From assembly GCA_903923395.1 (NCBI GenBank), contig CAIXXM010000146.1:1-64000 (forward strand): a stretch of 64,000 nucleotides of DNA, in the 5' to 3' direction. The stretch comes from an uncultured Acidobacteriia bacterium (GTDB lineage Bacteria > Acidobacteriota > Terriglobia > Bryobacterales > Bryobacteraceae). Every line of letters starts with the position of its first letter. Position 1 is the stretch's first letter. This document shows, one piece after another, positions 6,602 through 32,088 of the stretch. The notes under the pieces are model-generated. The model did not search any database. It saw only the letters and a program-made list of their open reading frames with translations, and was not told the DNA's origin. Both the position numbers and the translations under genes were made by a program.

Positions 6602-6718
6602 TGTTCCAAACGGAACGCCGGTGATGCCTTTTGTTGTCCGCTTTCGAAACAGTCCCGCCGGGGCGAATGGGCTAACTCATTGAAAAGACGTAGTCAGTAC
6701 TTTGGTTAGGGGCGTGCA
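6602..6718 (+). promoter_or_regulatory. Putative sigma-54 promoter with TGTTCC upstream site
   Basis: An inverted repeat GTTCC-AAAC-GGAAC lies at 6603-6616. About 90 bases downstream is TTGGTTAGGGGCGTGCAC with GG at 6704-6705, ten bases, then GC at 6716-6717, the invariant spacing of -24/-12 elements. A transcript would start near 6729, leaving room for the GGAG at 6739-6742 before the ATG at 6752. The same layout precedes the response regulator at 7451. GG-N10-GC alone is common by chance in GC-rich DNA; the shared GCGTGCA and upstream half-sites are what make it worth noting. Confidence 0.45.
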
Positions 6719-6751: not shown

Positions 6752-7324
6752 ATGATTTGCGAAATATGCAACAAGGAAATGCGCAGGGCACACCGGGAGA
6801 CGGCCAAGGACTATCTCTTCGCTTGTCTATGTTTCTTCCCCTACCGCTGCCCCTGCTGCCAGCGCAGACGCCTGGGTATTCGCTGGGAGCAGGCCGCTCT
6901 CTTCTATGGCGCCTGCACCGTGTTGTTTTTCGCCTTCGTGGTGGGAGTGGTCTGGTACAAATCAAAGCACCGTCCGGCACCGGTTTCGGCTTTCTCCGCG
7001 CATCCCATGAAGCCGGGTCTGGTGGAAAGTGAGCCGCCAGCCGCGCCCCAAATCGGTCCCTTCGGCCAGGTTCTCACTCCGGTAAAGCAGGCGCTGAGCA
7101 ATGCGGATATTGCGGATCTCTCGCAGGCTCATCTGGCGGGGGATGTTGTGACCCGCTTGATCCGCACGTATCCGCATAACTTCCAAATCGACCCGAAATC
7201 CCTGATTGAGTTGAAAAAGGCCGGTACGCCGGATATGGTGATCAGTGCCATGATTGACAGCACGGTAACGACCGCGCCAGGGCAGCAGGTTATTCCGAGC
7301 GCGTTCCATACTGTTCCATATTGA
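6752..7324 (+). CDS. Zinc-ribbon, single-pass membrane protein of unknown function
   Basis: 190 residues. The N-terminus carries two cysteine pairs (CEIC at 3-6 and CPCC near 35), likely a zinc ribbon. One hydrophobic membrane segment follows (about 47-70, ALFYGACTVLFFAFVVGVVW), then a proline-rich linker. The C-terminal helical domain (LSNADIADLSQAHLAGDVV through LIELKKAGTPDMVISAMID) matches a module I recall from many Solibacter-like proteins (NxDI..L...GL..D.ii..I..... ..L...LKKAGvpd.vI.aM). Its function is unknown to me. The ATG at 6752 is chosen because GGAG sits nine bases upstream; a GTG at 6737 has its GGAG too close. It lies between the polygalacturonase and the sigma-54 regulator. 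Confidence 0.7.
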   Translation: MICEICNKEMRRAHRETAKDYLFACLCFFPYRCPCCQRRRLGIRWEQAALFYGACTVLFFAFVVGVVWYKSKHRPAPVSAFSAHPMKPGLVESEPPAAPQIGPFGQVLTPVKQALSNADIADLSQAHLAGDVVTRLIRTYPHNFQIDPKSLIELKKAGTPDMVISAMIDSTVTTAPGQQVIPSAFHTVPY

Positions 7325-7429
7325 AACATCCCAATTCCGGAACACTGTTCCGTTTTGAACATGTGCCATACGTAATAGCGGTCTCAAAAGCCTAAAATCA
7401 CCCTTTTTGCTGTTGGTCCTGTGCGTGCA
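7303..7429 (+). promoter_or_regulatory. Putative sigma-54 promoter and palindromic activator site for the response regulator
   Basis: Half-sites GTTCCATA at 7303 and 7313 repeat with a ten-base period, followed by the perfect palindrome CGGAACA-C-TGTTCCG at 7338-7352. About 65 bases further is TTGGTCCTGTGCGTGCAG with GG at 7415-7416 and GC at 7427-7428 (N10). This agrees at 12 of 16 positions with the candidate at 6703-6718. Transcription would begin near 7440, just before GGAGG (7441-7445) and the ATG at 7451. This suggests autoregulation by the NtrC-type activator encoded here. Inference only. Confidence 0.5.
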
Positions 7430-7450
7430 GTGCCATGTGCGGAGGCCTAA

Positions 7451-8935
7451 ATGACTGCCACAGTCACGGAGCGTGATAATAGGTTCGAATGTTTCAACGA
7501 ATGGTCATCCGCGCCGGGGCTGCCAATGCCCGCTGAACAGCCGCTCGTCTTTGTTGTTGATGACGATCCGATGGTCCGCACTTTGCTGGACCGCTGGCTG
7601 GATATCGGCGGTTTCGAAATCAGCTCGCTGAGCAGCGGTGACAGCTGCATGCAGGCTCTTACCGAGGAGCTGCCCTCCGTGATTCTTCTGGATGTCAACA
7701 TGCCCGGCACGGACGGCATGGAGATTCTGCGCCAGATCCGGGAACACAATCCTTTGATTCCGGTGGTGATGTTGACGGCCAATGATGGTGTGGAGACCGT
7801 CGTCCGCGCGATGAAGCTGGGCGCTTACGATTACCTCACCAAGCCGCTGGACCGCACCAAACTCCTCACCACTGTAAAGAATGCCGCTGAACACGGGCGC
7901 TTGTCGTTCCGGGTTGCGCAGCTTGAGCGCGAAGTGGAAGGCCGCGGCTATGCGGGGATTGTTGGCAATTCGCCCGAAATGCAAAGGATCTTCCGCCAGC
8001 TGGACCGACTTTCGAAGAGCGATGTTTCGGTGCTAATCCACGGCGAAAGCGGCACGGGGAAGGAGCTTGTGGCGCGGGCGCTGCATATGTCCGGCGGCCG
8101 GTCCCGCGGGCCTTTCGTAGCGGTGAATTCCGCGGCCATCCCGGAATCTCTGCTCGAAAGTGAACTCTTCGGCCATGAGAAAGGCGCATTCACCGGCGCT
8201 GTTGCCCGCCGCGCAGGCCGGTTTGAAGAAGCCAACAAGGGAACGATCTTTCTGGACGAAATCGGAGAGCTGTCTCCCGCAGTGCAGGCCAAGCTCCTGC
8301 GCGTTTTACAGGAGCGCAAGTTTCAGCGCCTGGGCGGTCAGGCAACCATCACGTCGGATTTCCGGTTGATCACCGCGACCCATCGCAATCTGGCGGAAGA
8401 TGTGGATACAGGCCGCTTCCGGCAGGATCTGTATTTCCGGCTCGCGGTGTTTGATCTCGAAATCCCGCCGCTGCGGCAGCGTCTGGAGGATATTCCAGCA
8501 CTGGCGCAGGCCTTCATTCAGCAGTTTGGCAGGGAATCCGGCGCGACTGCGGACGTCCTCTCGCCGGAAGCACTGCAGGTGCTGCTCGCATACAAGTGGC
8601 CGGGCAACGTTCGGGAACTGCAGAACGTAATCCAGCGCGCGCTGGTGGTGGCGGAAGGAAGTGAGATCCGGGTTGCGGATCTGCCCGCCCGTCTCCGTGG
8701 TACTTCGGAAATTGCATCGCCAACCCCGCAGAATGCCGTGGTTGACGATGGCGCGACACTCCTCGATGTCTCACGCAAACTTGTCCACACCACGCTGATC
8801 AAGCATGCTGGCAACGCGTCCGCTGTCATGCGCGAACTCGGCATTGGCAGAACGCGCTTTTACAGGATGCTGAAGTCCTTCGATCTCGAAGAGACCATGA
8901 ATCAGCTTCGCCAGAATTCGAAAACTCCCGAGTGA
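7451..8935 (+). CDS. Sigma-54-dependent response regulator (NtrC family)
   Basis: 494 residues in three parts. A receiver domain spans about 30-150, with the DDD acidic pocket, phospho-acceptor Asp near 81 (ILLDVNMPG) and the lysine of YLTKPL. An AAA+ domain follows, with Walker A GESGTGKE near 198-205, the sigma-54-contacting GAFTGA loop near 246, Walker B TIFLDEIGEL and the R-finger region. A C-terminal Fis-type helix-turn-helix contains NASAVMRELGIGRTRFYRML. It activates sigma-54 RNA polymerase after phosphorylation. GGAGG lies five bases before the ATG. The likely partner kinase is the HNOBA hybrid kinase two genes downstream, with the H-NOX gene between them. Confidence 0.95.
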   Translation: MTATVTERDNRFECFNEWSSAPGLPMPAEQPLVFVVDDDPMVRTLLDRWLDIGGFEISSLSSGDSCMQALTEELPSVILLDVNMPGTDGMEILRQIREHNPLIPVVMLTANDGVETVVRAMKLGAYDYLTKPLDRTKLLTTVKNAAEHGRLSFRVAQLEREVEGRGYAGIVGNSPEMQRIFRQLDRLSKSDVSVLIHGESGTGKELVARALHMSGGRSRGPFVAVNSAAIPESLLESELFGHEKGAFTGAVARRAGRFEEANKGTIFLDEIGELSPAVQAKLLRVLQERKFQRLGGQATITSDFRLITATHRNLAEDVDTGRFRQDLYFRLAVFDLEIPPLRQRLEDIPALAQAFIQQFGRESGATADVLSPEALQVLLAYKWPGNVRELQNVIQRALVVAEGSEIRVADLPARLRGTSEIASPTPQNAVVDDGATLLDVSRKLVHTTLIKHAGNASAVMRELGIGRTRFYRMLKSFDLEETMNQLRQNSKTPE

Positions 8936-8950
8936 AAAGGAACCTCTCCC

Positions 8951-9508
8951 ATGTACGGAATGGTGAATCAAGCGCTCGAAAATATGGTTCGTGAAGCTCA
9001 CGGGGAAGCCGTGTGGCTGGAGATCAAGGCCGCCGCTGGTGTGGATGTTGAGATGTTTCTCAGCACGGAAGCCTATCCAGATTCGCTGACATATGACCTT
9101 GTCGGCGCTGCCTGCAAAGTTTTGAATTCGCCCGCGGAACCGCTGCTTGGCGCCTTTGGCCGCTACTGGGTATTGAACACAGCGCGCAAGGGTTACGGGG
9201 ACATGATGCGTGCCGCCGGCCGCAACCTGAAAGAATTCCTGCTTCACTTGCCGGACTTTCACTCCCGTATAGCCTTGATTTTCCCCCACCTGGTGCCACC
9301 TCACTTTGCCTGTAGTGACATCCAGGAGTATTCTCTGCATCTCCACTACCGCTCTCACCGGGCGGGCCTGGAACCCTTTGTCGTCGGACTCATTGAGGGC
9401 CTGGGTGAAATGTACTCGACGCCGGTCACGATTGAGGCGCTGGGGCCGGCGACTCCGGCCGACCGCCAATCTTTTCTTGTGACCTGGGCGAATCCCGCTG
9501 CCGAATGA
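8951..9508 (+). CDS. H-NOX (heme nitric oxide/oxygen binding) sensor protein
   Basis: 185 residues, the full length of a stand-alone bacterial H-NOX. It begins MYGMVNQALENMV like known members. The proximal heme ligand is most likely His104 in LPDFHSRI, followed by the conserved proline region FPHLVPP (112-117). The heme-propionate-binding YxSxR signature is complete as YRSHR at 133-137. I see no distal tyrosine after it (AGLEPFV), which favours an NO-selective rather than O2-binding type. AAGGA lies nine bases before the ATG. Its stop overlaps the kinase start as ATGA, so the two proteins are made together and probably form a complex. Confidence 0.93.
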   Translation: MYGMVNQALENMVREAHGEAVWLEIKAAAGVDVEMFLSTEAYPDSLTYDLVGAACKVLNSPAEPLLGAFGRYWVLNTARKGYGDMMRAAGRNLKEFLLHLPDFHSRIALIFPHLVPPHFACSDIQEYSLHLHYRSHRAGLEPFVVGLIEGLGEMYSTPVTIEALGPATPADRQSFLVTWANPAAE

Positions 9509-12500
9509 ATCTCTCTCTCAGTCCGGAACAGTTCCGTCAGGCATTCCCATTCCATCTGGTCTTTGACCGCGGGATGGCGCTGATCCAGGCTGGCCCTGTG
9601 CTTTCGCGCATCTGCCCTGAGCTCAGCGCCGGCGTATTGCTGCTGGAGCATTTCCAAATTGAGCGGCCGGTTTTCGCGCAGAACTTTGACGCGCTGCTGG
9701 AAGCTCCCAACAAGCTGTTCATCCTGGCCCACCGAAGCCGTTCACTCAAGCTGCGCGGCCAAATGATGCCGGACCCGGGTGGCAGCAGGATCACGTTTCT
9801 ATGCTCACCCTGGATGGCGGATGCCTCTTCCGTCGTCTCTCTTGGTCTCACCCTCGACGATTTCGCTCTGCATGATTCCGTGCCGGATTTTCTGCACGCC
9901 ATGCAATCGCAAACGCAGGCGCTTTCCGAACTGCGCACCGTTGCATCGCAACTGGAGGCCGGCAAGAAAACTCTGGCTGCCACCAACCAGCAACTTGAAG
10001 AAGCCCTGGCTGTTTTGAACGCTACCCTCGAAGCGACCGAAGAAGGAATTCTGGTGGCGGACCTCAACCGCACCATGATCAGTTTCAACCGTCGCTTTCT
10101 CGAAATGTGGCGCATTCCGGAAGATCTGGCGTCTACCCGCGATTCCAATGCCATCCGCCAGCTCCAGCTCGACCAACTGGCGGATCCCGCTGCTTTTATG
10201 GACCGTCTCGCCGCTCTGTACGGCGATCCGCAGAAGGAGGGCCGGGACAGAATTGAGCTGCGCGACGGGCGCCGCTTTGAGCGGGATTCCAAGCCTCAGC
10301 TTCTGCGCGGGAAAATCATCGGGCGCGTTTGGTGCTACCGCGATGTCACGGCGGATTGGCAGGCCAGACAAGCCTTGCGTTTGAGTGAAGAGCGGTATCG
10401 CAGCGTCGCCCAGACGGCATCCGACGGCATTCTCACTGTCGGCGAAGATGGCCGCATCCTGTTCGCGAACAATGCCGCGGGAGTCATTTTCCAGCGGCAC
10501 CCCGAGCAGCTCAAAGGCTTTCCACTGACACGCCTCATGCCCGGGGCGCACTCTTTCCGAAAATCGAGCGCGATACAAACGGATGGGTACCGTCCCGATG
10601 GGTCGAGGGTGCCGCTGGAATTATCGCTCGGAGCCGCCGAGCTGGACGGTGAGCCCTGGTACACCGCAATCCTCCGCGATGTGACCGAGTGGCGCAGAAC
10701 GCTGCAAGCTCTCGGGGACAGCGAAAGCCGGTACCGTCTCCTCGTCGACAATCTGCAGGAAGCCGTTTTCCAAACCGACGTTTCCGGCCGCTGGACCTTT
10801 CTCAACCCGGCCTGGACCACGATCAGCGGCTACTCCATCGAAGAGAGCCTCGGCAGACCCTTTCTGGAGTTTGTTCATCCCGATGACCGCGCGGCCAACA
10901 TGGAACAATTCGTGCCGCTGCTGGAGAGGAAGAAGCCTTACTGCCGCCACACCATCCGGTATGTCCGCAAAGACGGCGGCATCCGTCATATTGAGGTCCA
11001 CGCGCGCCTGGTTTTAGGCGATGCCTCGGCCATCCTCGGCACTGCCGGACTCTTGACCGACGTCAGTGCGCGCCTCGATTTCGAAGCCGGTCTGGAACGC
11101 GCCAAAGAAGCGGCAGAGGCGGCCAATCTGGCGAAGACGCAATTCCTCGCCAATGTCAGCCATGAGATCCGAACTCCGCTCAACGCCATCATCGGGATGA
11201 CGGAACTTCTCGGGCAAACCCACCTCAGCCCGGAACAGCTGGATTGTCAACAGACCGTTCTTACCAGCGCGGAATCGCTCCTGCATTTGATCAATGAACT
11301 CCTCGACATTTCGAAAATCGAGGCGGGCCAGATGGATATCGAACAAGCCGAGTTCGATCCGGGCGAAATCTGCGAATCCGTAGCGGCCATGTTCAAGCCG
11401 CGTCTGCAGAACCGCGAGGTGCAGTTATTCTGCTGGGCGGAACCTGCCCTCGCCCCCAGAGTTCTGGGCGATGCGAACCGAACCCGCCAGATCCTCATCA
11501 ACCTGCTTGCCAATGCGCTCAAGTTCACGCGTCAAGGCCATGTTTCGTTGTCACTCAGCTGGCAGATCCTGCAGGGAGAGCAGGTGCGCCTGGTGTTTCG
11601 GGTTGCCGACACCGGCATTGGCATCGCCACGCAGGACCTTCACCGCGTCTTTGAAAAATTCGTCCAGCTGGACCCCTCGAATTCGCGCACGTTTTCAGGC
11701 ACCGGTTTGGGTCTGCACATCTCCCGCGCACTCGCTGAGGCTATGAACGGGAGTTTGACCGTACAGTCAGAACCCGGCAACGGCAGCACTTTCCAGCTGG
11801 AACTGGTTCTGCCGCGGTCTGGAACCAGAACGGCAGCCGAATTTCAATTGCTGCAGCGCTGCCGGGAACTCCCGGCCTTCCTGGTCTGGTCCGGCCCGGG
11901 TCCGATGCGCGAAGTATTCGCGGCCTGGAGCTTGCAACTTACCACCTGCGAAACCACATCTGAGGCGAAAGCCCTGCTGGCCACGACGACGGGTCAACAG
12001 GCGCCCGTGGTCTTTCAATTCCTCGCGCCAGAGTCCACAGACCCGCCGTCTTTTGTGACGCTGGATCTCCCTCTGCTGCCCTCCAAACTCGAAGAGACGC
12101 TGCGGAAGTTGCTGGGTGTGATGCAAGAGCCGGCATTGGTTCCGCAGGTGGGGCTCCCGCAACCGCATTCCAGGACGAAGTCCGTGAGTCCGGTCATCCT
12201 GATCATCGAAGACAACCCGGAAAATCAGAAGCTTGCGGCCCGTCATCTGAGTTCGGCGGGTTACCGTTATGAGATCGCGGCGGACGGCATGGCCGGTGTG
12301 GAACTCGCATCGCGCTTCGTGTATGACGTCATCCTGATGGATCTGCGGATGCCGGGCATGGATGGCTTCGAGACTGCTGCCCGCATTCGTGCCAACGAAA
12401 GTGCTTCCGGCAACGCGCGTGTTCCCATCGTCGCCGTTACGGCCCATGCGCTTGAAGAACACCGCGGCCTTGCCTTCCAGCGCGGTATGGATGATTACCT

Positions 12501-13230
12501 CACCAAGCCCTATCACCGCGATGATCTGTTGCAGACGGTTGCCACCTGGATCGACCCCAGGCCGCTGGTTCTGGTGGTGGACGATGCGCCCGAGATCATC
12601 CACTTAATGCAGGGTTACCTGAAGAAACAGTGCCGCATTGTGGCTGCGTCCGACAAGGCGCAGGCCGTGGCTGAATTTGCCCGCCGCAATGTCTCTTTGG
12701 TGCTGATGGATCTACAGGTCGGGATGGAGGATGGCCTGGAGATCGCCCGCACCCTGCTCAAGATGCCGCGCTCTGTCCCTGTCCCGATCGTCGCCATGAC
12801 AGGAGACACAGGGCGCAGCGTTCGCGAGCGTTGTCTCGCCGCAGGGCTCTCCGGGTATCTTGCCAAGCCGGTTCGCAGACAGACCCTGCTGGAGACCGTA
12901 GAGCGTTTTTGCAGTCTCACCGCGACTCCGGCACCGCTTTTGATTTCGATCGACCCCGAACTTGCGGACCTGATCCCCGAATATATCCGCAGTGTTCGCG
13001 AAAGAACCGCGGAGATGGCCAGCCTGGCGGCTTCCGGTGACCTTGCCGGAGTCCAGCGCCTTGCCCACCAGATCAAAGGGTCCGGCGGCGGCTACGGCTT
13101 TCCTCAAATCACGGAACTGGGACGCGATATCCTTCAGGCCGCGAAGGCCCGCGACCAAGCTACAACGGCCCGGGTGGTCGCTCTTCTGGAAAGCTATCTC
13201 GCCACGCTGCAGTGGGAAATTGCCACATAG
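9505..13230 (+). CDS. HNOBA-PAS hybrid histidine kinase with two receivers and HPt
   Basis: 1241 residues, no membrane segment. Residues 14-24 read FPFHLVFDRGM, the hallmark of HNOBA, the H-NOX-associated domain of soluble guanylate cyclases; a coiled-coil (about 130-175) follows. Then come three PAS-like domains (about 175-290, 300-400, 410-530), HisKA with phospho-His near 553 (NVSHEIRTPL), and HATPase with N box near 665 and GTGLGL near 731. Two receiver domains (Asp near 946 and 1067) and a C-terminal HPt with His near 1188 (HQIKGSGG) complete it. This is a complete internal phosphorelay, presumably gated by the coupled H-NOX protein through HNOBA and ending on the upstream NtrC-type regulator. 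Confidence 0.93.
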   Translation: MNLSLSPEQFRQAFPFHLVFDRGMALIQAGPVLSRICPELSAGVLLLEHFQIERPVFAQNFDALLEAPNKLFILAHRSRSLKLRGQMMPDPGGSRITFLCSPWMADASSVVSLGLTLDDFALHDSVPDFLHAMQSQTQALSELRTVASQLEAGKKTLAATNQQLEEALAVLNATLEATEEGILVADLNRTMISFNRRFLEMWRIPEDLASTRDSNAIRQLQLDQLADPAAFMDRLAALYGDPQKEGRDRIELRDGRRFERDSKPQLLRGKIIGRVWCYRDVTADWQARQALRLSEERYRSVAQTASDGILTVGEDGRILFANNAAGVIFQRHPEQLKGFPLTRLMPGAHSFRKSSAIQTDGYRPDGSRVPLELSLGAAELDGEPWYTAILRDVTEWRRTLQALGDSESRYRLLVDNLQEAVFQTDVSGRWTFLNPAWTTISGYSIEESLGRPFLEFVHPDDRAANMEQFVPLLERKKPYCRHTIRYVRKDGGIRHIEVHARLVLGDASAILGTAGLLTDVSARLDFEAGLERAKEAAEAANLAKTQFLANVSHEIRTPLNAIIGMTELLGQTHLSPEQLDCQQTVLTSAESLLHLINELLDISKIEAGQMDIEQAEFDPGEICESVAAMFKPRLQNREVQLFCWAEPALAPRVLGDANRTRQILINLLANALKFTRQGHVSLSLSWQILQGEQVRLVFRVADTGIGIATQDLHRVFEKFVQLDPSNSRTFSGTGLGLHISRALAEAMNGSLTVQSEPGNGSTFQLELVLPRSGTRTAAEFQLLQRCRELPAFLVWSGPGPMREVFAAWSLQLTTCETTSEAKALLATTTGQQAPVVFQFLAPESTDPPSFVTLDLPLLPSKLEETLRKLLGVMQEPALVPQVGLPQPHSRTKSVSPVILIIEDNPENQKLAARHLSSAGYRYEIAADGMAGVELASRFVYDVILMDLRMPGMDGFETAARIRANESASGNARVPIVAVTAHALEEHRGLAFQRGMDDYLTKPYHRDDLLQTVATWIDPRPLVLVVDDAPEIIHLMQGYLKKQCRIVAASDKAQAVAEFARRNVSLVLMDLQVGMEDGLEIARTLLKMPRSVPVPIVAMTGDTGRSVRERCLAAGLSGYLAKPVRRQTLLETVERFCSLTATPAPLLISIDPELADLIPEYIRSVRERTAEMASLAASGDLAGVQRLAHQIKGSGGGYGFPQITELGRDILQAAKARDQATTARVVALLESYLATLQWEIAT

Positions 13231-13271
13231 CTTGCGTCCGCACTCTGAATCCGAAACAATCGGAGGAGACC

Positions 13272-13841
13272 ATGGCATTTTCCCGCTGGCTTTCCAAACT
13301 CCGCGGTGAGCCCGAAGGAGATACGACAGATCATTCGTTCTCTCTCGTTCTCCTCCTCCGCATTCCACGCCACCTGACGGAAGAAGCCATTCAGGATGCC
13401 GCCGAGACTGCCTTCATCGATACCCTCGAACACAAGGGTCCGGATTCTATCCTCGCTCTGCAGTCTGATCACATTACCGTGATCCGTGCGGGCGAAGAGA
13501 TGATGCAGGTTGTCCAGTTCGATACGGCTTACTTTCAGGACCGCTACACCACCGCGGCGCTCAGTGACGACCCGCGCGTGCGCGATGCCATCCTCGAACA
13601 CACCGCCTGGATCTCAGTCGATTACCTCACCGGCACGCGCAAGAAGACAGAACGGAACCGGGTTGCCATCTACAGGCTACTGGCCGCTTTGGCTGCCGCG
13701 CTGTGCGGAATCGACACTCTCGCCGTCTATTTTGTCCACGAAGAAAAGGTCGTTCCGTGCGATGACGAACTGATTCAGCGCCTGGAATACTTCGATTCTC
13801 TGTCAGACCTGCTGCGCTGGCACGCCAATGTCCTACACTAG
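13272..13841 (+). CDS. Conserved-looking protein of unknown function in the H-NOX operon
   Basis: 189 residues. The ATG at 13272 follows GGAGGAG (13263-13269) with a short spacer and is preferred over an in-frame start at 13212 that overlaps the kinase end. The protein is soluble, acidic and alpha/beta-like. A hydrophobic stretch (AIYRLLAALAAALCGIDTLAVYFV, about 135-158) is more likely a buried helix than a membrane anchor. I do not recognise a family. Its position 41 bases behind the kinase, with its own strong ribosome site, suggests it belongs to the gas-sensing operon. Confidence 0.65.
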   Translation: MAFSRWLSKLRGEPEGDTTDHSFSLVLLLRIPRHLTEEAIQDAAETAFIDTLEHKGPDSILALQSDHITVIRAGEEMMQVVQFDTAYFQDRYTTAALSDDPRVRDAILEHTAWISVDYLTGTRKKTERNRVAIYRLLAALAAALCGIDTLAVYFVHEEKVVPCDDELIQRLEYFDSLSDLLRWHANVLH

Positions 13842-13848
13842 ACGCAAT

Positions 13849-15249
13849 ATGCGTCTTATTAAGTTCGCCGTACTTGCCGCGCTGGCCGTTGTTTGTATTT
13901 CCTTCGCCGCGAAGGAACCCGAAACGGATCCCCGTCTCAAAGGCTCTTACCGCAAACCAGTCCAGCAGGATGGCTGGACCGTTGTTCACCTGGAAGGCAC
14001 CCCCGCCAATATCGGCTTCCAGCACGGTTGGCTGCTTGGCGCGGAAATCGTTGATGCGCTGAACGTGCAGAAGGTGGAGTTCGAACACGATTCCGAGAAG
14101 AAGTGGGATTTCTACCGCGATGCTGCGGAACATATCCTCTGGCCGCATATTGAACAGGAGTACCGCGAAGAACTCCAGGGCATCGCCGATGGCCTGAAGG
14201 CGCGCAACATCAAGCTGGATCTCTGGGACATCGTCGCCCTCAACGCTGCCATGGAGTGGGAATACTACACCAAGCAGTACAACAAGCAGCACGACGTGAA
14301 GTCGCCGAAATCGCTCGTCGCGCCGGATCACTGCAGCGCCTTCGTCGCCACCGGCAGCTACACCAAAGACGGCAAGCCGGTGATCGGCCACAATAACTGG
14401 ACCAGCTACATGGAAGGCACCCGCTGGACCATCTCCTTCGATATCAAGCCCGTCAAAGGCCACCGCTTCGTGATGGACGGCTACCCCGGCCTCATCCACA
14501 GCGCCGATGACTTCGGCATCAATGACGCCGGCATTGTCATCACGGAGACCACTATCTCTGATTTCGAGGGCTTCGACACCAACGGCATCGCGGAATTCGT
14601 CCGCGCCCGCAAGGCCATGCAGTACTCGGAAAACGTGGATGACTTCGCCCGCATCATGAAGGAAGGCAACAACGGCGGCTATGCCAATGACTGGCTCGTC
14701 GCGGATATGCGGCACAATGAGATCGCAAGTCTGGAGCTCGGCCTCAAGAACGTGGAACTCAAGCGCACCAAAGACGGCTACTTCGTGAGTGCCAATTACC
14801 CCATCAATGAGAATCTGCTCAAAGAGGAAACCACGTTCAATCCCAAGGATCCGCAGGTCAGCAGCAACGCGCGCCGCATCCGTTGGGAGCAACTCATGGC
14901 GGAGTACAAGGGCAAGATCGATCTCGCAGCAGGCAAGAAGTTCCTGGGCGACCACTACGACGTGACCACCAAAACCGTGCAGCCCAATGAGCACACGCTC
15001 TGCGGCCACATTGACCTCTCCTCACGCGGCATGGGCAACTGGAAAAAGCCCTACGAACCCGCCGGAGCCGTACAGAACAAGATCACGGATTCAAAGATGG
15101 CGGCGAAGATGATGTATCAGGCACTCGCCGGACATGCGTGCGGGTTGGATTTCAAAGCGAAGCAGCACCTCGCCGAGCATCCTGAGTTTGCCTGGACCGC
15201 ACCGATCCTCAAAGACATGCCCGCCCACAAGTGGACAACCATCCAGTAA
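13849..15249 (+). CDS. Exported Ntn-type hydrolase, C45 peptidase / phospholipase B-like
   Basis: 466 residues with a signal peptide (about 1-21, LIKFAVLAALAVVCISFA). The segment near residue 155-175, APDHCSAFVATGSYTKDG, followed by GKPVIGHNNW, looks like the nucleophile region of acyltransferase/phospholipase-B-like Ntn hydrolases. Cys in HCSAF would become the N-terminal nucleophile after self-cleavage, and HNNW resembles the conserved downstream Asn. The substrate (an amide-linked acyl chain or phospholipid) cannot be read from sequence. I start at ATG 13849 so that the signal peptide is at the terminus; ATG 13828 overlaps the previous gene. Confidence 0.7.
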   Translation: MRLIKFAVLAALAVVCISFAAKEPETDPRLKGSYRKPVQQDGWTVVHLEGTPANIGFQHGWLLGAEIVDALNVQKVEFEHDSEKKWDFYRDAAEHILWPHIEQEYREELQGIADGLKARNIKLDLWDIVALNAAMEWEYYTKQYNKQHDVKSPKSLVAPDHCSAFVATGSYTKDGKPVIGHNNWTSYMEGTRWTISFDIKPVKGHRFVMDGYPGLIHSADDFGINDAGIVITETTISDFEGFDTNGIAEFVRARKAMQYSENVDDFARIMKEGNNGGYANDWLVADMRHNEIASLELGLKNVELKRTKDGYFVSANYPINENLLKEETTFNPKDPQVSSNARRIRWEQLMAEYKGKIDLAAGKKFLGDHYDVTTKTVQPNEHTLCGHIDLSSRGMGNWKKPYEPAGAVQNKITDSKMAAKMMYQALAGHACGLDFKAKQHLAEHPEFAWTAPILKDMPAHKWTTIQ

Positions 15250-31950: not shown

Positions 31951-32088
31951 TGTTCCGAATTGGAATGTTTTCTGTTCCATGACCTGTTCCGTTTCGGGAA
32001 TGCGTCATCAGCAGTCCGCAGCCAGAACCCCGCATTCAGGGGATTTATGGGTATTTTCCCGCTTGGCGAACTTGGCAACCAAGCTGCA
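31951..32088 (+). promoter_or_regulatory. Third TGTTCC half-site cluster with possible sigma-54 element
   Basis: TGTTCC occurs at 31951, 31973 and 31985, with GGAATG at 31962 and again near 31997. The block GTTCCGAATTGGAATGTTT closely matches the reverse complement of the site upstream of the response regulator (7320-7352). About 100 bases on is TTGGCAACCAAGCTGCAA with GG at 32074-32075 and GC at 32086-32087 (N10, TGGCA and TGCA both good). If real, the following gene would start near GTG 32102 rather than ATG 32000. Confidence 0.4.

Follow-up and report, generated by a model that had tools for sequence, protein, structure and literature searches.

Conserved acidobacterial cassette of an H-NOX protein, an HNOBA hybrid kinase and a sigma54 regulator: a probable nitric oxide-responsive phosphorelay

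The stretch of DNA analysed here, called the window, comprises the first 64,000 nucleotides of contig CAIXXM010000146.1 from GenBank assembly GCA_903923395.1, an uncultured Acidobacteriia bacterium of the Bryobacteraceae. The contig is C146 of a 6.15-Mb assembly that is 98.5% complete. Three genes on the forward strand encode an NtrC-family response regulator (7451-8935), a stand-alone H-NOX protein (8951-9508) and a hybrid histidine kinase headed by an HNOBA domain (9505-13230), and a further conserved gene precedes them at 6752-7324. The cluster is real and is conserved across genomes; its parts, gene order, active-site residues, conservation and cis element are derived from sequence. Comparisons were made with 61 relatives (the genome itself included), a phylum sample of 297 genomes and named genomes. 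The scan of the named genomes gave 44 loci with 45 HNOBA occurrences and used a single peptide pattern built from eight acidobacterial sequences, and is thus biased. Genomes are referred to by G numbers and fetched loci by L numbers; overlapping named and unnamed loci, several of them with identical sequences, were counted once.

The HNOB and HNOBA domains were reportedly first described by Iyer in 2003. The H-NOX protein of the window matches the Pfam HNOB profile over positions 1-162 of 163, with 167.4 bits against a cut-off of 25.5. The proximal His104 and Trp73 are present, as is the sequence Y133-R-S135-H-R137, which we take to be the heme propionate motif. In an alignment of 16 H-NOX proteins, from the window and 15 fetched loci, His104, Tyr133 and Arg137 are invariant and the proximal His, the Y-x-S/T-x-R motif and Trp73 are retained throughout. 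The distal residue is presumably Phe143, as mapped from guanylate cyclase numbering, and stable O2 binding via a distal Tyr would therefore not be expected. The closest solved structures are Nostoc Alr2278 (E 1.6e-49) and then the beta1 subunit of guanylate cyclase. The ATG of the kinase gene at 9505 overlaps the H-NOX stop codon, TGA 9506-9508, as an earlier note on this DNA had stated.

The kinase is composed of an HNOBA PAS domain (about residues 2-117), a long helix (126-180), PAS repeats, HisKA, HATPase, two receivers (REC1 and REC2) and an HPt domain. The earlier note had placed an HNOBA domain within residues 1-160, citing the sequence FPFHLVFDRGM (residues 14-24), and a Pfam search finds it there with 93.4 bits against a cut-off of 23.4, in two stretches of which the best covers residues 76-166. 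Pfam also recognizes PAS domains, HisKA at 543-608, HATPase_c at 655-769, both receivers and HPt at 1157-1236 (40.0 bits). The reading of three PAS domains, two receivers, an HPt domain and a complete HisKA-REC-HPt relay is thus upheld by profiles and motifs, the third PAS domain (PAS_7, residues 175-287) scoring slightly below its cut-off (25.2 against 27). SHEIRTP, an N-box, DTGIG, GTGLGL, the Asp motifs of both receivers and AHQIKG of the HPt domain were all found, and the predicted phosphorylated histidines are His553 in HisKA and His1188 in HPt. The protein has every motif of a full relay (HisKA His, ATP-binding, receiver Asp and HPt His). The interval between HATPase and REC1, about residues 785-890 (window 11857-12174), has no Pfam match; by eye it resembles a degenerate receiver.

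By sequence, the HNOBA domain is nearest to 2P04, from a histidine kinase of Nostoc punctiforme (E 1.4e-27), and then to guanylate cyclase. A predicted model of the domain has a pLDDT (predicted local distance difference test) of 90 and a 55-residue helix, and Foldseek matches its fold to 2P04 with a root-mean-square deviation (rmsd) of 1.8 Å and also to guanylate cyclase. The domain and helix together match the guanylate cyclase beta chain over about 170 alignment columns. The model, in which the helix is straight, fits the nitric oxide (NO)-activated beta chains 8hbf, 8hbh and 6jt2 with an rmsd of 5.0-5.7 Å and the inactive or unliganded chains 8hbe, 6jt0 and 7d9t with 12.6-14.7 Å (Foldseek). 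The better fit to the activated state was given no weight because the model is a monomer prediction.

The response regulator consists of a receiver, a sigma54-interacting AAA+ domain and a short Fis-type helix-turn-helix. Pfam gives Response_reg (109.7 bits), Sigma54_activat (235.6) and AAA_lid_14, the helix-turn-helix (HTH_8) is weak at 15.6 bits against a cut-off of 22, and the receiver Asp motif, Walker A, GAFTGA and Walker B are present. These matches, together with conservation in other genomes, support the proposal that the adjoining output protein is an NtrC-type activator. The start codon is at 7451 or 7526: relatives pointed to 7526, and a candidate promoter site at 7413 with a GGAGG at 7441-7445 favours ATG 7451. 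The protein scores below the equivalog cut-offs of both PrsR (TIGR02915; 409.7 against 502.6) and NorR (NF003451; 336.2 against 476). The best paralogues in its own genome are 41-42% identical, and 12 matches, itself included, reach E<=1e-60. The gene for sigma54, rpoN, is present in the genome (189 bits).

The conserved fourth gene of the cassette is, as judged from its homologues, the upstream gene at 6752-7324. It was absent from the earlier note, as were the promoter-like elements at 6602-6718 and 7312-7429. The gene encodes 190 amino acids from ATG 6752, in a frame that opens at GTG 6737, and its product has a CxxC...CxxC arrangement and one apparent membrane helix, the first CxxC and the helix being read by eye. 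Its conserved C-terminal region recurs weakly in many proteins. The product has no Pfam or NCBIfam family above cut-off, and solved structures give a match at chance level (E 0.69). Of the five best matches elsewhere, four are 45, 43, 42 and 40% identical over most of the length of the gene; the 40% match contains one TAA, and the fifth is split, in G015. Homologues lie upstream of the regulator in G017, G003, G007 and G015, and in G014 the homologue is at the end of contig C66 and the regulator at the end of C13. No match to this product was seen beside the cassettes of L044, L048, L054, L056 and L062.

Both the upstream gene and the regulator operon are preceded by two dyads of the TGT-N10/11-ACA type and a -24/-12-like site, all on the forward strand. 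Before the upstream gene the tandem dyads, which are candidate enhancer sites, are TGTTCCAAACGGAACG at 6602-6617 (imperfect) and TGTCCGCTTTCGAAACA at 6635-6651, 84 and 50 nt before the -24 element of a candidate sigma54 site, TTGGTTAGGGGCGTGCA, at 6702-6718. This site keeps GG-N10-GC and is otherwise far from the strict consensus. The second dyad pair, TGTTCCATATTGAAACA at 7312-7328 and TGTTCCGTTTTGAACA at 7346-7361, is 84 and 51 nt before the -24 element of TTGGTCCTGTGCGTGCA at 7413-7429, the candidate site that precedes the GGAGG and ATG 7451 of the regulator.

We favour, at a probability of about 0.62, the reading that the cassette is an NO-responsive phosphorelay that drives a sigma54-dependent autoregulatory switch, the signal passing from H-NOX to the HNOBA hybrid kinase and then to the regulator. 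We infer that the stand-alone H-NOX binds heme, and NO at the ferrous heme, and that it docks on the N-terminal HNOBA PAS domain of the kinase, much as the same domains are arranged within a single guanylate cyclase chain. The change of state would be transmitted through the long helix and the PAS repeats to HisKA. Phosphate would then move from His553 to a receiver Asp, to His1188 of the HPt domain and to the receiver Asp of the co-encoded regulator; the residues for each transfer are present. Phosphorylated regulator may occupy the tandem dyads 50/51 and 84 nt upstream of the -24/-12 sites, where sigma54 polymerase would transcribe the membrane-protein gene at 6752-7324 and the regulator's own operon, together a small switch that reinforces itself. 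Whether NO would activate or inhibit the kinase is close to evenly balanced; guanylate cyclase, as an analogy, tips the choice slightly towards activation, whereas inhibition is reported for HnoX-HahK of Vibrio fischeri. A more ambitious form of the reading is offered only tentatively. The cassette might be a self-contained bacterial sensor of the guanylate cyclase type in which HNOBA and the helix pass on the heme signal and turn on the sigma54 regulator, with genome-wide targets that are almost only its own operon and the conserved CxxC membrane protein. It would then act as an NO switch or memory device with positive feedback, and its tandem enhancer, with dyads 50/51 and 84/85 nt away from the -24 element, would be new.

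The coupling of H-NOX to an HNOBA kinase, which the earlier note had proposed, is backed by its conservation in other genomes. HNOBA occurs in 15 of the 61 relatives (E<=0.001; three of these match the helix end only) and H-NOX in 11, and 6 of the 297 phylum genomes have HNOBA, one with the helix only. The weak matches in G006, G010, G016 and G176 cover only the C-terminal helix and were discounted as HNOBA proteins. Across the named loci, 36 of the 45 HNOBA occurrences have an H-NOX of more than 60 bits that ends at most 400 nt upstream. Of the other nine, L086 is cut by a contig edge, L088 has a degenerate H-NOX, L111 has its H-NOX at a distance of 966 nt and six have no H-NOX nearby. A same-strand sigma54 domain lies no more than 1.3 kb upstream of HNOBA, before the H-NOX, at 11 of the 44 named loci. 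In ten of these it belongs to a REC-sigma54 regulator (in part at L081, which meets a contig end), and all ten records are titled Acidobacteriota; the eleventh, L107, lacks a REC and was left out of the count. With the window, a second locus in G007, and G014, G017 and G033, the same gene order is found in 15 distinct cassettes. The named records that hold it are metagenome assemblies, Bryobacterales and Bryobacteraceae among them.

Related regulators are numerous in these genomes, and the regulator could belong to a different kinase and stand upstream of H-NOX by coincidence. We consider such a chance neighbourhood very improbable, as it is opposed by the shared order in the 15 cassettes and by the distribution of the regulator among relatives. 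Close homologues (58-75% identity) occur in exactly 10 of the 61, the genome itself included, and all ten are among the 11 with H-NOX (Fisher p 1e-10, overstated since the genomes share ancestry). The H-NOX genome that has no close regulator, G008, carries a divergent H-NOX beside an HNOBA-GGDEF-EAL protein. A further point against coincidence is that G259 has a sigma54 regulator beside an H-NOX/HNOBA kinase at two loci, arranged differently (downstream in L064, divergent in L065). Regulator matches at E<=1e-120 occur in 6 of the 297 phylum genomes. The preferred reading, in which the regulator is the partner of the kinase, is also consistent with the distribution of HPt. All 14 complete kinases with the regulator upstream contain this domain, as against 13 of 37 other HNOBA proteins, 12 of them with the His (Fisher p 2e-5, uncorrected for kinship). 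The tally was made by hand, with eight duplicates and truncated proteins left out; the other group includes L107, L065 (divergent regulator) and L086 and L047 (cut upstream), and some of its members are not kinases. A tree was built from 56 HNOBA domains after 9 of 65 rows, eight duplicates and a 79-residue fragment, had been removed. The regulator label is clustered on it, with 7 changes against a shuffled mean of 13.3 and 0 of 500 shuffles as low. The labelled domains do not form a single clade, the backbone is weak and the bootstrap had not converged.

The dyad/-24/-12 composite recurs at other cassettes. The -24/-12 pattern TTGG-N9-TGCA precedes the upstream gene in all six loci examined that hold the gene, with a dyad 50-51 nt further upstream, and L083 and L085 have a site just before the regulator with a dyad at 80 and 86 nt, respectively. 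Upstream regions of 300 nt are 0.58-0.64 identical in pairs, against 0.586 (standard deviation 0.018) for random sequence, which is at most about three standard deviations above chance; the exception is the closely related pair L052/L129 at 0.83. Among ten listed elements, allowing one odd outer letter, a dyad lies at 49-52 nt in eight (shuffle rate 0.019) and at 82-86 nt in six (0.033), and the second spacing is the fairer figure because the ten were chosen for carrying a dyad. A pair at 765 in L083 was set aside as part of another kinase/regulator pair, and a pair at gap 133 in L103 and a match on G015 C93 were taken as chance. A search of the 61 genomes for the strict composite gave two matches in the genome of the window, both at the cassette (one for the backwards control), and one each in G003, G014 and G017, at the upstream gene, where one of the two in G015 also lies. 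G007 has three matches, two beside the cassette, of which one is before a lectin-like gene. The third, at L135 (G007:C139), precedes a gene labelled by eye as a REC and PP2C-like phosphatase, possibly an extra target in that genome. The 51 genomes that do not have the regulator hold 14 matches, and the backwards control gives 11 in all 61.

It is possible that H-NOX, kinase and regulator work as proposed and that the composite promoters serve another sigma54 activator, for example one of PrsR type acting on surface-protein genes, with no autoregulation. Haft 2006 (PMC1569441) describes an element before proteobacterial PEP-CTERM genes in which a 17-nt motif that may be repeated is followed by a spacer of about 63 nt and a -24/-12 motif, and assigns it to PrsR. 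The lectin-like gene of G007 has a sub-threshold PEPxxWA-CTERM score (17.4, cut-off 35), and the 12 regulator matches in the genome of the window show that other sigma54 regulators are available. A separate regulon should, however, give more than two strict composites, and both of those found are at the cassette. The sites precede the regulator itself in the window, L083 and L085, and this regulator falls below the PrsR cut-off. We regard the alternative as unlikely, and return to the reading in which the cassette regulator acts on its own operon and on the upstream gene.

A number of observations weigh against that reading. The composite pattern was drawn from these same loci and its presence there is partly by construction. 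The cassette genomes G002, G009, G012 and G033 have no composite match, and G020, which has no cassette, has three. In 15 regulator upstream regions of usable length, a site directly before the regulator is found only in the window, L083 and L085, whose own sites were among those used to train the weight matrix. Both window sites differ from the strict sigma54 consensus TGGCAC-N5-TTGCW by more than 2 mismatches: a scan of the window at that tolerance gave 32 matches against 38 expected, and the sites at 6702 and 7413 were not among them. Taken by itself, the dyad shows no enrichment in the window (10 found, 8.7 expected). Four of the six phylum genomes with a regulator match at E<=1e-120, at 47-56% identity, have no listed HNOBA match, L087 and L089 keep H-NOX and the HNOBA kinase with no local regulator, and the regulator label requires those 7 changes on the HNOBA tree. 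In G018, a genome of 98% completeness, an HNOBA kinase is retained but neither an H-NOX match nor a close regulator is found, and the kinase can thus persist without both. Fairer support for the composite is that it recurs at loci that have diverged, stands a second time before the regulator, is present in L083 and L085 and is rare elsewhere. A set of ten regulator upstream regions gave no common -24/-12 site, although the window has one, and a shared site emerged once the upstream gene was included; in the other loci that hold this gene, the entire operon could be driven from its site. The window has three copies of TTGG-N9-TGCA, of which the third, at 32072, has no dyad, and the strict sigma54 consensus has one match in the genome, outside the cassette.

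The case of G018 also bears on a rather improbable alternative, in which the kinase mainly serves other inputs, H-NOX is optional and HNOBA and the PAS repeats sense something else, such as redox state or other ligands. The kinase of G018 (L053) has the HisKA and HPt His motifs, its N- and G-box patterns are unmatched, and its core is 65% identical to that of the window. In G009 (L055) the HNOBA kinase and a 62%-identical regulator are on separate contigs, neither with an adjacent H-NOX, and there is in addition a regulator/H-NOX pair cut by a contig end. The named loci L098, L103 and L114 also have HNOBA with no H-NOX, and several PAS domains of the kinase have no assigned ligand. The proximity of H-NOX in 36 of 45 occurrences and the gene overlap in the window argue against this alternative, as does the fact that the acidobacterial loci with a missing or degenerate H-NOX (L053, L055 and L088) also have no adjacent regulator. 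The kinases of G018, G009 and L061/L088 group with the regulator-bearing ones on the HNOBA tree. At L061:7223-7495 (L088), a divergent 90-residue H-NOX remnant stands before an HNOBA kinase with no adjacent regulator, and the HPt His is Gln. A transglycosylase/LysM gene lies upstream of the hybrid kinase in L053 (G018:C126).

The earlier note had called the arrangement a distinct layout. This is true in part, as a conserved sigma54 regulator is added to the pair. The HNOBA kinase itself is not new: 2P04 and 2P08 come from a Nostoc kinase, HNOBA kinases occur in several phyla, and an H-NOX gene beside an HNOBA kinase gene is a widespread kind of locus. The principle of H-NOX acting on a sigma54 regulator is known from V. 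fischeri. The new elements are the conserved regulator as third gene, the conserved upstream fourth gene, the dyad/-24/-12 composite and an HNOBA kinase that carries its own HPt. Nostoc punctiforme 2P04/2P08 and Nostoc H-NOX Alr2278 are the closest relatives of the HNOBA and H-NOX domains, respectively. The two cyanobacterial loci fetched, L084 and L090, however, lack any sigma54 domain at E<=1e-10, and L084, unlike the window, has its HNOBA in a GGDEF-EAL protein. The likeness to soluble guanylate cyclase beta1 extends over H-NOX, HNOBA/PAS and the following helix, but the window encodes H-NOX separately and has a phosphorelay, rather than a cyclase, as its output.

According to PMC12369376, V. 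fischeri HnoX-HahK acts through the HPt of SypF/LuxU on SypG, a regulator called sigma54-dependent. H-NOX and kinase are co-encoded there and an HPt relay leads to a sigma54 regulator, a scheme that the window fits by gene content alone. In that pathway other proteins carry the HPt and a polysaccharide locus is controlled, whereas the window kinase has an HPt of its own. In Shewanella HnoX-HnoK-HnoB/HnoC, H-NOX controls a kinase that feeds response regulators, as outlined in a cyclic di-GMP review (PMC8846402) and an H-NOX review (PMC8738867). The outputs given are a cyclic di-GMP phosphodiesterase and the repressor HnoC, unlike the sigma54 regulator of the window. PrsK-PrsR has in common with the cassette an NtrC-type regulator and an enhancer motif, spacer and -24/-12 motif in the same order. 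The excerpt of PMC1569441 presents a transmembrane kinase and makes no mention of H-NOX, and the window regulator is under the PrsR cut-off. NorR is likewise an NO-linked sigma54 activator, but is controlled by its own GAF domain; the window regulator has a receiver and falls below the NorR cut-off. Anantharaman 2006 (PMC1592074), Ma 2010 (PMC2828450), PMC2904703 and PMC9850573 were also consulted. Searches of the open-access literature, in listings and the beginnings of abstracts, found no description of an H-NOX/HNOBA-kinase/sigma54-regulator cassette.

How the state of H-NOX is passed to HNOBA and the coiled coil is a central question for guanylate cyclase. Here the two domains are on separate proteins, with a kinase and predicted promoters as read-outs, and each step could be assayed alone. 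The natural losses in G018, G009 and L088 offer comparison kinases with no working neighbour H-NOX. If the autoregulatory circuit is real, the regulon of this NO response would be small and nameable, and the conserved membrane protein encoded at 6752-7324 would gain a context.

HNOBA is also fused to GGDEF-EAL (L046, L084, L093 and L111) and to a SpoIIE phosphatase (L107). At L107:7431-9722, from Candidatus Uabimicrobium amorphum, H-NOX is followed by an HNOBA-SpoIIE phosphatase-HATPase protein, and a sigma54-domain protein with no REC match lies upstream, which makes this a different HNOBA output. The betaproteobacterial metagenome-assembled genome at L101:4117-11483 has two HNOBA proteins, one a kinase directly after H-NOX and the other with no kinase-core match.

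Downstream of the kinase, the earlier note had included a fourth protein (13272-13841) in the layout. It was rejected as a component: nothing in 23 fetched loci (19 with HNOBA proper) matches it at E<=1e-4, nor does anything in the other 60 genomes at E<=0.001; its own genome holds one weak second match (E 7.8e-4), and it belongs to no family. The open reading frame starts at ATG 13269 on the forward strand (13269-13841), and an AlphaFold model of its product made with no alignment is uninformative (pLDDT 39). Overlapping it at 13828-15249, and with no match (E<1e-8) beside the cassettes of relatives, is a gene for a C45-family autoproteolytic acyltransferase/hydrolase (177.7 bits, cut-off 85).

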